A stretch of DNA of 33,582 nt from Alphaproteobacteria bacterium (GTDB lineage Bacteria; Pseudomonadota; Alphaproteobacteria; UBA9655). Shown piece by piece: positions 15,976-22,256 of the stretch. The translations under genes were made by a program, and so were the position numbers. The stretch lies in NCBI GenBank assembly GCA_021731585.1, contig JAKFXB010000038.1, forward strand, positions 1-33,582. The letters run 5' to 3'. The notes under the pieces are model-generated. The model did no database searches. It saw nothing but the letters and a program-made list of their open reading frames with translations, and was not told the origin of the DNA. Every line of letters starts with the position of its first letter. The first letter of the stretch is position 1.

Positions 15976-17583
15976 TCAACTCACCTTCAAGTCAAAGGCA
16001 GCCTTAATCAGAGCTTTCGTATAGGGTTTTTCAGGAGCGGTAAAGATGGATGCGGCCGTTCCGCGCTCAATAATTTTTCCATGGCGCATGACCAGGACAT
16101 CATGGCTGATGGCCCGCACCACCGCCAAGTCATGGCTGATGAAGAGATAGGCCAACTTGTGGTCGGTCTGCAGCTTACGCAAGAGATCGATAATATCCAC
16201 CTGCACAGAGCGATCCAGGGCAGAAGTAGGTTCATCAAGTACTACAAGCTTTGGTTTCAAAGCAATGGCGCGGGCAATGGCGATCCGTTGGCGCTGCCCC
16301 CCTGAAAATTCATGGGGATAGCGGTGGCGGGCCTCGGGATCAAGGCCAACTTCTTTTAAGGCCTGAATCACAAGAATATCCCGTTCCTCCGGGGTTTTCC
16401 CCAAACGATGGATTTCGAGGCCCTCGGCAACGATTTGCTGCACACTCATGCGGGGACTCAAAGAGCCGTTTGGATCTTGAAATACAACTTGCATTTCACG
16501 GCGCAAGGAACGTAGTTTTTTCCGCCCATAGTCTTGGATTTCTGCACCATTAAACCAAATAATTCCTTGGCTTTGCTGCAAACGCAGCATGGCCATGGCA
16601 AAGGTCGTTTTTCCCGAGCCGCTTTCCCCCACAATCCCAAGGGTATGTCCTTCCCTTAAGGTAACGGTGACATCATCTACAGCCCGGATATCATCAACCT
16701 TTCGGCGAAAAAGCCCTTTGCGCACATCAAAGTAAACCTTGATGTGTTCAGCCTTTAACAAGGGGTTGGCTTCAGAGGAAACCGGAACTGCCTCCCCGCG
16801 CGGAAAAGAGTTGAGAAGATGGCGGGTATAGGGAGATTGTGGTTTGGCAAAAACCTTTTTGGTCTCGCCCTCTTCCATCACCAGGCCATCCTTCATGACC
16901 ACAATACGGTCAGCCATCTTCCGCACAATGCCTAAATCGTGGGTGATGAGGAGCATCGCCATATCCAGCTCTTTTTGAAGCTTCTTAAGAAGATGAAGAA
17001 GCTTGGCTTGGATCGTCACATCAAGGGCCGTTGTCGGCTCATCTGCAATAAGAATTTGCGGCTCACAGGCCAGAGCCATGGCGATCATTACCCGCTGCCG
17101 CTGACCGCCGGAGAGCTGATGGGGATAGGCTCCAAGGCGAGATTCGCCATCCTTAAAGCCTGCCATCTCTAAAACTTCAATACAGCGTTTACGGGCTTTA
17201 TCTCCCATAAGACCTTTGTGCACCAACAAAACTTCTTCAATCTGTTTCTGTACATTATGAAGAGGATTCAGGGACGTCATGGGTTCCTGAAAAATCATGG
17301 CAATCTTATTGCCCCGGATCGGAAGGAGGATCTTTTCAGGAGCATTCACCAAATCGTGACCCTGAAAATAAATATGACCTGAAGGATGGGAAGCCTTTGG
17401 ATAGGGAAGCAATTGCAAGATAGAAAGAGCGGTGACCGACTTTCCTGAGCCACTCTCTCCCACAAGGGCTACGGTTTCCTTGGGATTCAGGGTAAAGGAG
17501 ACAGACTTGACTGCCTCAATCACTTTGTCTTGCTGCTTAAAATTGACGCTTAAATTTTCAACGGAAAGTAAAGGCTTCGTCAT
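15976..17583 (-). CDS. yejF: peptide ABC transporter, fused double ATPase subunit (YejF)
   Basis: This ATPase powers the YejABEF importer, which takes up oligopeptides and, in enterobacteria, the microcin C nucleotide-peptide. The 535-residue protein contains two complete nucleotide-binding domains. The first has P-loop GESGSGKS (42-49), signature LSGGQRQR and Walker [13 protein letters not shown]. The second has P-loop GESGSGKTT (about 310), signature FSGGQRQR and Walker [13 protein letters not shown]. Oligopeptide/dipeptide-transporter C-terminal extensions follow each domain ([22 protein letters not shown]). Its start overlaps the end of yejE by 4 nt. The fusion is the normal YejF layout, close to the 529 residues of E. 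coli. Confidence 0.95.
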
Positions 17584-18605
17584 AAATTCGCCTTTCGAGG
17601 ATCAAAAGCATCGCGCACGGCTTCCCCAATAAAAATCAACAAGGTGAGCAGAATTGCTAAAACCGCAAAGGTTGAAATCCCAAGCCACGGCGCTTGAAGA
17701 TTGTTTTTACCTTGGTTCAACATCTCTCCCAAAGAAGGCGAGCCCAAAGGCAGCCCAAAACCTAAGAAATCTAGGGAAGTAAGAGTTGTAATGGAAGCAT
17801 TCAGAATAAAAGGCATAAAGGTTAAGGTCGCTACCATAGCATTGGGCAGAACATGACGATAGATAATCCGCGGCGTAGAAAGGCCCAAAGCGCGGGCTGC
17901 TTTAACATATTCTAAATTCCGAGCGCGCAAGAATTCAGCACGCACAACGGGCACAAGCGCCATCCAACTAAAAAGCAACATAAGCCCTAAAAGCCACCAA
18001 AAATTCGGTTGAACCACACTTGCGAGAATAATCAGAAGATACAAAACAGGCATGCCGGACCATATTTCCATAAACCGTTGGAATATAAGGTCAGTAAGTC
18101 CTCCAAAATATCCTTGGATGGCCCCTGCCGTCACCCCAAAAAATGAACTGAGTAGGGTAAGGGTCAGGCCAAAGAGAACAGAAATACGGAATCCATAAAT
18201 GAGGCGCGCGAGCACGTCCCTCCCCTGATCATCGGTCCCCAGCCAGTCTTCAGCGGAAGGTGGCGAAGGTGCTGGCACGGGGAGATCATAATTAACCGTA
18301 TTATAGCTGAAAGGAATCAGGGGCCAAATCATCCAACCCTGAGCGTCAATCAGATTTTGAACAAAAGGATCTCGGTAGTTGGTTTCCGTTTCAAATTCAC
18401 CCCCAAAGGTTGTCTCCGGATATTGAACGAAAGTCGGATAATAAAAGTGATTCTCATACTTAACGAGAAGCGGCTTATCATTGGCGATGAATTCAGCAAA
18501 AAGGGTGACTGTAAACAAAACAAGGAAAATCCAAAATGAGACATAGCCGCGCTTGTTTGCTTTAAATTGAGAAATCCTGCGCTGCGTTATAGGCGTAAAA
18601 GCCAT
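17580..18605 (-). CDS. yejE: peptide ABC transporter permease YejE
   Basis: This is an inner-membrane permease subunit of the Yej peptide importer, paired with YejB. The 341-residue protein begins with a cytoplasmic stretch typical of the family (TQRRISQFKANKRGYVSFW), one early membrane helix, a periplasmic loop (about 60-130), then the BPD_transp_1 domain. GTDDQGRDVLARLIYG is the OppC-type signature. The EAA coupling loop reads EYVKAARALGLSTPRIIYRHVLPN. Its start codon shares one base with the yejB stop (TAATG), so translation is coupled. The length equals that recalled for E. coli YejE (341). Confidence 0.95.
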   Translation of the reverse strand: MAFTPITQRRISQFKANKRGYVSFWIFLVLFTVTLFAEFIANDKPLLVKYENHFYYPTFVQYPETTFGGEFETETNYRDPFVQNLIDAQGWMIWPLIPFSYNTVNYDLPVPAPSPPSAEDWLGTDDQGRDVLARLIYGFRISVLFGLTLTLLSSFFGVTAGAIQGYFGGLTDLIFQRFMEIWSGMPVLYLLIILASVVQPNFWWLLGLMLLFSWMALVPVVRAEFLRARNLEYVKAARALGLSTPRIIYRHVLPNAMVATLTFMPFILNASITTLTSLDFLGFGLPLGSPSLGEMLNQGKNNLQAPWLGISTFAVLAILLTLLIFIGEAVRDAFDPRKANL

Positions 18606-19711
18606 TAGCCCATCCTCCGCTCAAAATCAATGCGCGGATCAATAAAGGTATAGGAGAGGTCTCCCACAATATGGAGGAAAAGACCAAGTAAAGTAAAAAT
18701 ATAAAGCGTTCCAAAGACGACCGGGTAATCCCGGCTGATGGCAGAGTCAAAGCCCAAAAGCCCCAGACCATCAAGGGAGAAAATAACTTCGATCAAAAGC
18801 GAGCCGGAAAAGAAAATGCCAATGAGGGCTGCGGGCATGCCCGCAATGACAATCAACATGGCGTTGCGAAAAACATGGCCAAAGAGAACCCTGCGTTCTG
18901 TCAACCCTTTGGCTCGCGCCGTCACCACATATTGTTTGTTAATTTCTTCCAAAAATGAGTTCTTAGTCAAGAAGGTCAGGCTTGCAAAACCACTGATAAC
19001 CATCGCCGTGATGGGCAATACCATGTGCCATAAGTAGTTTAATACCTTATCGATCAACCCTAATTGATGCCAGTTATCGGACACCAAACCTCGTAGGGGA
19101 AAGATGGACCAAAAGCTCCCGCCTGCAAAAAGAACGATTAAAAGAATCGCAAAAAGAAATCCAGGGATCGCATAGCCCACAACCACAACGGCGCTGGTCC
19201 ATACATCAAAGGAGGTGCCATCATGCACCGCTTTACGAATTCCAAGCGGAATAGAGATCAGATAGACAAGAATGGTCGTCCATAACCCAATACTAATGGA
19301 AACAGGCATCTTTTCGATAATTAGCTCCATCACAGAGCGATCTTTGAAATAACTCTCCCCAAAGTTAAAGGTAAGATAGTTTTTCATCATCAAGAGAAAG
19401 CGTTCAAGGGGCGGCTTGTCAAAGCCAAACATTTTTTCAAGCTTGGCGATGAATTCTGGATCCAATCCCTGAGCGCCTCTATATTTACTCTCAGAGAAGT
19501 GGGTCTCTCCCATTTGCTCCAAAGCCTGAGTGCTCTCCATGCCCGAGCCCGAAATACGGGAAGTCGCATCCACATTATTGCCACGAATTTTGGCAATCAT
19601 TTGCTCAACGGGGCCGCCAGGCGCCGCTTGAATCACAAGAAAATTGATCACCATAATACCAAAGAGAGTGGGAATAATCAGCAATAAGCGGCGTAAAAAA
19701 TAGGCCAACAT
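18605..19711 (-). CDS. yejB: peptide ABC transporter permease YejB
   Basis: This second permease half of the Yej importer is of OppB type. The 368-residue protein starts with the classical N-terminal helix of these permeases ([20 protein letters not shown]) followed by [12 protein letters not shown] periplasmic segment (about 45-115) precedes the transmembrane domain ([19 protein letters not shown] onwards). The EAA loop reads [20 protein letters not shown] and is followed by VFRNAML. It ends [17 protein letters not shown], a typical OppB/YejB ending. It lies 8 nt after yejA and overlaps yejE by one base. Confidence 0.95.
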
Positions 19712-19719
19712 TTATAGAG

Positions 19720-21645
19720 TTACCTTTTTAACTTGGCTTCTAAAGCCGGATCCACCCACCAAGCACTGAAACCAACCCCATCTTTGGGTGCTTTCGCCGG
19801 GTGTCCAAATTTATTCCAATAGGCAAAGCGGGAAGTTTTACCATACCATCCGGGAATTCCATAATATCCCCATAATAACACCCGATCCAAGGCATGAACA
19901 TGGGTTTCAAGGGTGGGCCGATCCTGTGAGTCTAAAAGAAGGGCTACTAGCTTGTCCACAACGGGATTTTTGATTCCTGCATAATTGCGTCCTCCAGGAA
20001 TGTCAGCATAGGTTGACACCCAAAAGTCGCGCTGTTCATTTCCTGGAGTTTCCGACTCCAGAATGGAGGTCGATATCATGTCATAATCAAAGCTTTGAAT
20101 TCTTTCTATATATTGAGACGGCGTGACAGTCCGAATGGTCATGTTTACACCCAATGAGTTCAAATTCCGTTGAAGGGCCAAAGCAACCCGTTCATAGTTA
20201 GGATCACTCAGCAAAAGTTCAAAGGTAAAAGGCTCTCCCGTCTTTTGATTAACGCGCTGGCCATTCTTAATCACCCATCCCGCCTCTTCCAAAAGCTTAT
20301 TCGCTTTCTCAATAAGACGACGATCTTGTCCTGAGCCGTTTGAAACAGGCAATTTAAATTCTTTCGTAAAAAGTTCTGCAGGAAGCTGGTCTTTAAAAGG
20401 CTCAAGGAGAGCAAGCTCTTCCCCTTGAGGCAGGCCTGAGGAGGCCATATCCGAGTTATTAAAGTAACTCTGCGCCCTCACATAAGAATTGAAAAATAGA
20501 TTCTTATTAATCCATTCAAAATCAAAAGCCTCTGTTAAAGCTTGCCGCACTTTGGGATCTTTAAAAAGAGGTCTACGGGTATTGAACGCAAGCATTATCA
20601 TTCCAGCGGGAAGTTGATTAGGAGTTTCTTTTAAGATGATCTTGCCTTTCGTTACGGCAGGAATTTTATAGCCGCTAGCCCAGTTTTTAGCAATGTTCTC
20701 GAGGCGAAAATCATAAGCGCCTCCCTTAAACCCTTCAAACTGAACCGATTGATCCCTAAAATAGATGTAAGTAACATCAAAGTTATGCTGTCCTTTTTGG
20801 GAAGGCAGATTTTCTCCCCACCATCCCGGAATGCGCTCATAGGTTACTGTTTGCCCTGCTTGAAAATTCTTGACCTTATAGGGGCCACAGCCTACAGGAG
20901 GCATTAAATCAGCGGCTTCAAAATTATGTTTTGTATAATAGGCCTTAGAAATCACATATAATAATTGCCCCAAAATAGCAGGAAGCTCGCGATTACGATC
21001 GGTTGAGAAGAGAAAACGAACCTGATCCGGCCCCGCCTTTTCCACTTTCGTGACGTCCTTGTAATACTGGGCAAACAGAGGGATTCCCTTTTTTATGTGC
21101 ATATTAAAGGAAAAAATGACATCATCTACCGTGACTGGAGTCCCATCGGAAAACTTGGCATTTTTGTTAAGAGTAAAAGTGACACTTTTGTGATCAGGCG
21201 CAACTTCAACCTTTTCAGCTAAATACCCATAGAGAGAAAAAGGTTCATCCTGGGCAGTATCTAAAAGGGTACAATGAAGAAGCACAGCACCCGCTGCAGC
21301 ATCGCCTTTGATAACAAAAGGGTTGAAACTATCAAAACCGCCTGTGGTCGCTAATTTTACATTTCCCCCTTTAGGAGCCTCGGGGTTCACATAATCATAA
21401 TGGGTAAAGTTTGCCGGATACTTGAGGTCACCAAAGATAGCAATTCCATGGGTCGGTTGAGGTTGGGAAGCTGGTGTCGTTTCGGCGTATAAAGGTGACA
21501 ACAGAAAAGTCGTCATTGCGAGGAGGGACAGAGTCCTGACGAAGCAATCCATTTTCCTTCTAAATGTAAGAAGCATACTCTTGATCGCCACGCCCTCTTC
21601 GAGGGCTCGCGATGACGATTTTATATTTGCGGAATTGAAACGCAT
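19720..21645 (-). CDS. yejA: peptide ABC transporter substrate-binding protein YejA, with palindrome-derived N-terminus
   Basis: This periplasmic SBP_bac_5-family protein delivers peptides to YejBE. The mature part is ordinary: HGIAIFGDLKYPANFTHYDYVNPEAPKGG is the expected YejA opening (quoted here only as a landmark: start HGIAIFGDLKYP), later MPPVGCGPYKVK and AFNTRRPLFKDPKVRQAL. The N-terminus is odd. The frame is open to a TTG (21651), but ATG 21645 follows AAGGA and the cytochrome stop by 2 nt. From it, about 30 residues precede the hydrophobic core MDCFVRTLSLLAMTTFLL, with a likely cleavage after SPLYA. Residues about 10-23 and 33-47 are translations of two palindromic elements (listed separately), so the signal peptide itself is partly made of repeat DNA. 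Confidence 0.94.
   Translation of the reverse strand: MRFNSANIKSSSRALEEGVAIKSMLLTFRRKMDCFVRTLSLLAMTTFLLSPLYAETTPASQPQPTHGIAIFGDLKYPANFTHYDYVNPEAPKGGNVKLATTGGFDSFNPFVIKGDAAAGAVLLHCTLLDTAQDEPFSLYGYLAEKVEVAPDHKSVTFTLNKNAKFSDGTPVTVDDVIFSFNMHIKKGIPLFAQYYKDVTKVEKAGPDQVRFLFSTDRNRELPAILGQLLYVISKAYYTKHNFEAADLMPPVGCGPYKVKNFQAGQTVTYERIPGWWGENLPSQKGQHNFDVTYIYFRDQSVQFEGFKGGAYDFRLENIAKNWASGYKIPAVTKGKIILKETPNQLPAGMIMLAFNTRRPLFKDPKVRQALTEAFDFEWINKNLFFNSYVRAQSYFNNSDMASSGLPQGEELALLEPFKDQLPAELFTKEFKLPVSNGSGQDRRLIEKANKLLEEAGWVIKNGQRVNQKTGEPFTFELLLSDPNYERVALALQRNLNSLGVNMTIRTVTPSQYIERIQSFDYDMISTSILESETPGNEQRDFWVSTYADIPGGRNYAGIKNPVVDKLVALLLDSQDRPTLETHVHALDRVLLWGYYGIPGWYGKTSRFAYWNKFGHPAKAPKDGVGFSAWWVDPALEAKLKR
21511..21550 (+). 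repeat. palindromic element B inside the yejA signal peptide region
   Basis: Plus strand: CGTCATTGCGAGGAGG ... GACGAAGCAATCC, with inner arms GGAC (21526-21529) and GTCC (21533-21536) and outer arms ATTGC (21515-21519) and GCAAT (21544-21548). Read on the coding strand it gives MDCFVRTLSLLAMT of YejA. Its ends resemble the CGTCATTGCGAG...GAAGCAATCC palindromes dispersed in several intracellular bacteria; that resemblance is from memory. Confidence 0.7.
21580..21619 (-). repeat. palindromic element A inside the 5' end of yejA
   Basis: Minus strand: CGTCATCGCGAG, then CCCTCGAAGAGGG, then CGTGGCGATCAAG. The core GCCCTC-TTC-GAGGGC (21592-21606) is a perfect six-pair hairpin. Its head CGTCATCGCGAG matches 11 of 12 bases of the head of element B, in opposite orientation, so the pair is bounded by 12-bp inverted repeats at 21511-21522 and 21606-21617. 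It encodes SSSRALEEGVAIKS of YejA. Confidence 0.7.
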
Positions 21646-21647
21646 TA

Positions 21648-22256
21648 TCAAGGTCCTTCCTTCTTAACATCATTTTTAGGTTCAGGTTCTTTTGAAGAGG
21701 GCGCAACTTCCTTAACTACCGGAAGTGGCATGGGGGAGTCACTTTGTTTCATCATATAAGCAATCAAATCGGCTCTTTCCTTATCGTCTTTAACACCCGC
21801 AAAGGACATTTTTGTCCCCGGCACGAAATCTCGAGGAGAGTACAGCCATTCGTTTAAGTCATCAAGAGTCCATGTGCCCCCTTTTTTCTCCAAGGCTGAA
21901 GAATAAGCATAACCTGGATGCTGTCCCTTAGGCGCTCCAACAACAGCATAAAGGTCCGGACCTATCCGATTGGGTCCTCCTTTTTCAATGGTATGGCAGC
22001 TAGTGCATTTTTTGAAAGCAGCTTCCCCTTGTTGCACATTAGCAGCCGCCAGAAGAGGCTCAATAGGCGCCGGCCCTTTTTTCGCCACTTCCACGGGCGC
22101 TCCTGAAGAGGAAGAAGACACTCCCGCAATTTTATAAACGTTTTCTTTAAGCATGTGAGGTTCAATAAGGTGATTTGAAATCAGATCCGCACCTTTAATG
22201 GTCAACAGGGCAATTAAAATGGCGGCGGCAATCTTGTTAAATTCAAAGCTGTCCAT
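21648..22256 (-). CDS. membrane-anchored c-type cytochrome (CycM-like)
   Basis: This is a class I cytochrome c, probably carrying electrons from the bc1 complex to a terminal oxidase at the periplasmic face of the membrane. The 202-residue protein has an uncleaved N-terminal anchor (FNKIAAAILIALLTIKGADL, about 6-25), a flexible Ser/Pro/Ala linker, then the haem domain: CTSCH at 84-88 with GPNRIGPDLYAVVG after it, and the likely distal ligand M150 in GTKMSFAG. The C-terminal 35 residues are Pro/Lys/Glu-rich. This is the usual alphaproteobacterial CycM/c552 layout. It is the first gene of a run with yejA-yejB-yejE-yejF and ends 2 nt before the yejA ATG; no functional tie to peptide import is known to me. 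Confidence 0.93.
   Translation of the reverse strand: MDSFEFNKIAAAILIALLTIKGADLISNHLIEPHMLKENVYKIAGVSSSSSGAPVEVAKKGPAPIEPLLAAANVQQGEAAFKKCTSCHTIEKGGPNRIGPDLYAVVGAPKGQHPGYAYSSALEKKGGTWTLDDLNEWLYSPRDFVPGTKMSFAGVKDDKERADLIAYMMKQSDSPMPLPVVKEVAPSSKEPEPKNDVKKEGP

Follow-up and report, generated by a model that had tools for sequence, protein, structure and literature searches.

A CGTC-tagged REP dimer in the signal-peptide codons of yejA, and its probable incorporation into an export signal

We analysed a 33,582-nt stretch of DNA (the window) from an uncultured alphaproteobacterium whose genome, G000, is a draft assembly of 158 contigs. Codons 10–45 of its yejA gene hold a 107-bp block (21511–21617, minus strand), in frame, in which two REP-type hairpin units, each with a CGTC end, form a head-to-head dimer. 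According to comparison with related genomes, this dimer probably inserted into the signal-peptide codons, was kept in an open frame and is now part of the Sec export signal of YejA.

The REP dimer in yejA

yejA (19720–21645, minus strand) encodes an intact protein of 641 aa, the solute-binding protein of a YejABEF-type peptide ABC transporter (Pfam SBP_bac_5, E = 6.6e-72). Downstream, in the arrangement of a YejABEF-type operon, lie two permease genes, one yejB-like (18605–19711, minus strand; BPD_transp_1) and one yejE-like (17580–18605, minus strand; BPD_transp_1 and OppC_N), followed by a double ATPase gene, yejF-like, with two ABC domains (15976–17583, minus strand; two ABC_tran stretches). 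On the upstream side, the stop of a cytochrome c gene (21648–22256, minus strand; a listed ORF, Cytochrom_C E = 2.4e-8) abuts the yejA start. A Shine-Dalgarno-like GGAAGGA (21654–21660, minus strand) precedes the ATG, and the insert-bearing relatives are similar there. Alignment with four relatives (G010, G005, G009 and G012) identified MRFNSANIK (21618–21645, minus strand) as the native 5' end of the gene preceding the insert. On the far side of the block, TFLLSPLYA (21484–21510, minus strand) corresponds, by alignment with relatives and by hydrophobicity, to the native remainder of the signal core and the cleavage region.

The block was delimited from its sequence, its copies in the genome, its translation and alignment. 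It comprises units of 37 and 41 nt separated by an AT-rich spacer of 29 nt (21552–21580, minus strand). Unit A (21581–21617, minus strand), supported by a covariance model (57.6 bits), its fold and covariation, consists in order of a CGTC tag, the hairpin ATCGC-GA-GCCCTC-GAA-GAGGGC-GTG-GCGAT and the tail CAA. Unit B (21511–21551, plus strand; 25.0 bits and fold) has the opposite orientation. The repeat codes for YejA residues 10–23, SSSRALEEGVAIKS, and unit B, read on the coding strand, for residues 32–45, MDCFVRTLSLLAMT. The 12-bp ends of the block, CGTCATCGCGAG and CTCGCAATGACG, are inverted and identical at 11 of 12 positions. At zero or one mismatch, the end motif occurs three times in the window, against 0.12 expected.

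A first-pass annotation of this DNA had described two palindromic elements at this place, with opposite-facing 12-bp heads matching at 11 positions, and had given their translations. These points held, the block being 2 bp shorter than the range originally given. Each of the two elements is one REP unit, and their translation in frame within the signal peptide was supported. No Rfam match was obtained between positions 19000 and 23000. No target-site duplication was visible at the insert in comparison with G012, whose yejA is only 72.5% identical.

The repeat family and its known counterparts

Searching G000 with the block returned the self match and 15 more, including a copy of near full length at C3:37670-37764 and many half matches. 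The block is thus multi-copy rather than single-copy. Pairs of facing end motifs, 87–136 bp in length, occur on C1, C3, C6, C13, C24, C32, C42, C48 and C83, paired inverted ends also occur on C12, and further paired copies in G000 number about ten. The covariance model identified 43 units in G000 (a figure that takes in a tandem array on C66), 71 in G010, 55 in both G014 and G003, and 29 in G012; G013 and G016 had no units.

The hairpins of this family are conserved. The stem of the long-armed units has 5 bp, an internal loop and 6 bp, closed by a 3-nt loop. In the 13 long-armed units, all 142 pair cells (100%) were standard, and the stems contained 33 double changes compared to a shuffle mean of 9.2, a number reached in none of 500 shuffles. 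The CGTC tag, which begins both yejA units, was invariant in these 13 units, as were the stem-opening AT pairs (A-U, U-A; 13/13). The unpaired tail is CCA in most units and CAA in unit A of yejA. The compensatory change belongs to the repeat family as a whole: it is common to the intergenic copies and therefore reflects the life cycle of the repeat rather than its role in yejA. Among 12 dimers, 19 of the 72 frames were free of stops, indicating that an insert does not by default stay open and keep the frame.

In the portions of Di Nocera et al. (2013; PMC3733652) drawn on here, CGTC-tagged REPs are a superfamily found mostly in Alphaproteobacteria and mostly as head-to-head dimers with spacers of 20–100 bp. 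They have no dedicated transposase, and some lie within genes, many of those near N-termini. The same portions give the four published families, CGTC-1 to CGTC-4, a stem of 8–9 bp and a loop of 4–5 nt, and equate RPE-4 and RPE-6 of R. conorii with CGTC-4 and CGTC-1. The yejA repeat shares with these elements a CGTC/TGTC end outside the stem, an AT stem start, a CCA-like tail and many head-to-head copies. It differs from CGTC-1 to CGTC-4 in its long-armed stem of 5 + 6 bp around an internal loop. By those portions of the published description, the family lies inside the CGTC-tagged REP superfamily and outside its four published families. The comparison with Rickettsia RPEs made in the first-pass annotation was apt, in that some RPE families are CGTC-tagged REPs by the same account.

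Insertion of RPEs in frame is well known (PMC10969869). Compared by description, the present family similarly places in-frame palindromes in unrelated genes (yejA, LpxB, MutL, slt, lolA, PstS-like and others), but in another alphaproteobacterial lineage. REPINs and RAYT-mobilised GTAG REPs are likewise dispersed as a hairpin pair of ~100 bp (PMC3116915); unlike them, the yejA family carries a CGTC rather than a GTAG tag, and G000 has no match to a Y1 (RAYT-type, Y1_Tnp) transposase. Mobilisation of the RAYT/REPIN kind was rejected on this ground and because Y1 count does not track unit count across the genus: G013 has five Y1 matches and no units, and G014 and G003 have 55 units each and no Y1. 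The genome copies, empty sites and size variants support the original proposal, namely a small non-autonomous element whose terminal inverted repeats are imperfect. As in MITEs, the element is short, has inverted ends (11/12 match) and lacks a transposase of its own. It is nevertheless better described as a REP dimer than as a classical MITE: the insert shows only the dimer, with no visible target duplication and no longer terminal inverted repeat.

The yejA site in relatives and the export core

Most orthologues lack the repeat-coded residues. Together with the multi-copy state of the block, this goes against the refuting condition named in the first-pass annotation, a single-copy block whose residues are conserved in distant YejA proteins. 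In G012, the YejA signal peptide is plain, at 20 residues without repeat (MMFFRFLIITLLFFPPSLHA), although that genome has 29 unit matches. Plain N-termini are likewise present in G003, G004, G006, G007, G008, G013 and G016. The YejA proteins of close relatives are 88–90% identical to that of G000. Related inserts of different length occupy the site in three species: 107 bp in G000, 59 bp in G010 and 38 bp in G005. Each length is 2 mod 3, and the frame is open from the native ATG in each. The frame is likewise unbroken by a 3-nt indel that lies upstream of the repeat. GCAAT repeats occur in the two units, and the 38-bp form seems to have arisen by deletion between them; a form of the same kind is present at C8:23828-23865 of G000.

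Other repeats occur at the same site. G009 has, at nearly the same place, a different dimer of the TGTC family, TGTCATCCTGAG...CTCAGGATGACA, with 59 matches in its genome. In G015, of a sister genus, yejA contains a dimer resembling the CGTC-1 type (18 matches in that genome). In G002, the dimer in yejA is decayed, and its second unit and flank recur in that genome; the repeat remnants in G014 are weakly supported. All are in frame with an upstream ATG. Across two genera, three or more repeat families occupy the site. In the second YejA paralogue, such inserts were absent from all 14 genomes.

Together, the empty sites in relatives, the frame-keeping size variants and the copies elsewhere in the genome indicate that the yejA block is an in-frame insertion. 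The trees of YejA and of four genes do not fix the order of G000, G010, G005 and G009, and the concatenated tree is weakly supported. On these trees, one ancestral CGTC insertion followed by replacement in G009 is indistinguishable from separate events.

To compare signal cores, we used a hydropathy scale and a 14-residue window. The G000 core, LSLLAMTTFLLSPL, draws LSLLAMT from the repeat, which is about half of it, where the first-pass annotation had stated most of it. The core SLLAMTTFLLSPLYA is present in G000 YejA, and its hydropathy falls in the range of the relatives only with the repeat residues included. The best mean hydropathy was 1.76 with the repeat residues and 0.69 without them in G000, 1.75 and 0.19 in G010, and 2.24 and 0.39 in G005. 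Orthologues with an empty site gave 1.73–2.48. As the native remnant is far below these orthologues, the repeat residues appear to be needed for an ordinary core in the three species, where about half of the export core is predicted to be repeat-coded. G009 and G015 retain a complete native core, and there the repeat adds length to the n-region only. It is from these comparisons that we infer that the repeat serves in export.

In the mechanism we propose, a dispersed, non-autonomous CGTC-tagged REP dimer of the genus would have entered the signal-peptide codons of yejA, presumably moved by a mobilising enzyme, and would have been retained because the reading frame was left open. Translation would run from the native ATG (21645) through the repeat and on into the second half of the core, which is native. 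The repeat residues (...SLLAMT, or IVGVAMT in G005) would replace the lost upstream half of the core in G000, G010 and G005. The repeat would thereby belong to the Sec export signal, with cleavage expected after ...SPLYA. The region probably tolerates repeated inserts because signal peptides are constrained in hydrophobicity and not in exact sequence.

It is unlikely that translation starts instead at the ATG of residue 32 within the insert (MDCFVRTL...), such that the repeat is partly 5' untranslated and donates the start and the front of the signal. Counted from the native ATG, the n-region is unusually long, at ~37 residues. ATGs are available at residues 23 and 32, AGAAGGAAAATGG stands ahead of residue 32, and an internal start gives MDCFVRTLSLLAMTTFLLSPLYA, which from residue 32 has 23 residues, an ordinary signal-peptide length. 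Many N-terminal REPs may be extragenic, according to the portions of PMC3733652 drawn on here. However, the native ATG stays in frame and free of stops in the 59- and 38-bp forms and across the 3-nt indel, which lies ahead of every internal ATG; an internal start would not require this. Moreover, G005 has no internal ATG before the core, just a GTG, and a good Shine-Dalgarno sequence is retained at the native start. Even if true, an internal start leaves the repeat coding for half of the core. A doubtful reading, albeit one with a better chance than an internal start, is that the stretch is permissive and accepts any hydrophobic sequence, the repeat being tolerated there as filler and not selected as a signal. 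This reading fits the REP dimers in linkers and loops (the C32 ORF, MutL of G014, LpxB of G005), and the slt, lolA, PstS-like, G009 yejA and G015 yejA cases, all of which have an intact native core and an n-region that the repeat just lengthens. By contrast, the remnant alone is well under empty-site hydrophobicity in G000, G010 and G005, which argues for present use of the residues, even if the insertion itself was neutral. The filler reading overlaps with insertion followed by use in export and differs from it mainly in emphasis.

The repeat could also act on the mRNA, as a hairpin close to the start codon that adjusts translation or mRNA stability, its coding role being incidental. The RNA fold of the whole dimer (-39.1 kcal/mol) and the covarying stems of the units speak for this. 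We nevertheless consider it improbable: the covariation is not a yejA trait, the yejA copy folded as single-stranded DNA gains only modestly over shuffles (z = -2.03), and folding yields just -21.0 and -18.4 kcal/mol for the 38- and 59-bp forms, respectively, both of which keep the frame. Native coding sequence is rejected on account of the multi-copy repeats and the orthologues without the residues. Taken with an artefact of assembly or binning, to which the draft state of G000 (158 contigs) might point, it has next to no likelihood: related forms are at the yejA site in two other assemblies and other repeats in G009, G002 and G015, the family is multi-copy, and the 641-aa ORF is intact within a 33-kb contig.

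Insertion of the dimer and its use in export thus being the preferred reading, its bearing is as follows. REPs and RPEs within genes are usually viewed as tolerated inserts in loops and termini. CGTC-tagged REPs were already known, as were REPs or RPEs inside genes; what appears to be new is the recurrent occupancy of signal-peptide codons and the likely action of a repeat as part of an export signal. The portions of PMC3733652 drawn on here do not describe repeated occupancy of signal-peptide codons or a contribution to an export core. In the open-access literature, we found no earlier report of a signal peptide built in part from a REP, RPE or MITE, and the exact end motif occurred only in one unrelated plant paper. 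If the preferred reading is true, a mobile DNA repeat is the source of part of a signal peptide. Related species present a series of natural states at a single site of an intact protein gene: an empty site, inserts of 107, 59 and 38 bp, and repeats of other families. This makes it directly testable whether mobile palindromes become working protein parts. Selfish repeats may be able to enter genes through signal peptides at little cost, and some N-terminal 'extensions' in such genomes may be repeats rather than wrongly annotated starts.

Repeats in other genes and sites

Similar inserts occur in other genes, at the N-termini of slt, lolA and a PstS-like gene. In G010, the insert in slt (L318) is 177 bp long and in frame, and 9 bp of its target are nearly duplicated (CATYATTTT); lolA (L329) has an in-frame insert of similar size with ends GTGGCA...TGCCAC adjoining a duplicated TA. 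In both, the REP dimer is nested in a longer element with MITE-like ends and, as in MITEs, duplicated targets (9 bp and TA), which suggests that CGTC REPs can hitch-hike on other elements. In a PstS-like gene of G009, a REP dimer immediately follows the ATG. Relatives have empty sites for the slt, lolA and PstS-like inserts, all of which leave the native core intact. Further in-frame cases are in CcmH (just past a signal-like stretch), a pilin-like gene, LpxB and a MutL linker. The location of repeats in genes was judged from 88 unit matches chosen among the best-scoring, and the inserts were found via open frames, a procedure that would miss out-of-frame insertions, so these cases carry no claim of enrichment. 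On balance, we favour the view that palindromic repeats in this lineage, alone or within MITE-like inserts, have landed repeatedly in signal-peptide codons (yejA, lolA, slt, PstS-like), with the yejA repeat taken over as half of a working export core in three species, although with less assurance than we hold the account of yejA itself.

Intergenic sites also vary in content. At the C1 site (G000:C1:41023-41109; orthologous sites L223, L228 and L214), G000 has a CGTC dimer, G009 and G010 have a TGTC dimer at the orthologous position, and G005 has a third palindrome; three different palindromic repeat families thus occur there across species. The C3 site has a TGTC dimer in G009. A second C42 site is occupied in G010 and empty in G005 and G009.

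Several individual cases are recorded here. The second in-frame REP dimer of G000 (L084, G000:C32, 827–918) lies within an ORF of at least 789 aa, in a linker rich in Ser, Thr and Pro. The LpxB-like gene of G005 contains a full dimer in frame (L307, 1693–1729), and its flanks match those of the 38-bp form at C8:23828-23865 of G000 (L081). An in-frame REP unit lies in the MutL linker of G014 (L286, 7086–7120; G014:C6:77285), and REPs in repair genes are remarked on in the portions of PMC3733652 drawn on here. In the pilin-like gene of G010 (L246, 1247–2218, minus strand; G010:C57:6556), the prepilin leader has no evident start codon downstream of the REP dimer, which suggests a translation start within the repeat or ahead of it. 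Finally, the C66 array of G000 corresponds to a gene of tandem 141-bp (47-aa) repeats (L296, 6690–9469, minus strand), each of which contains a whole CGTC-REP dimer (12.4 + 4.4 copies according to TRF). An apparent orthologue in G010 (L265, 1507–2655) has about two copies, and the C66 gene looks like a repeat protein grown from a REP dimer.
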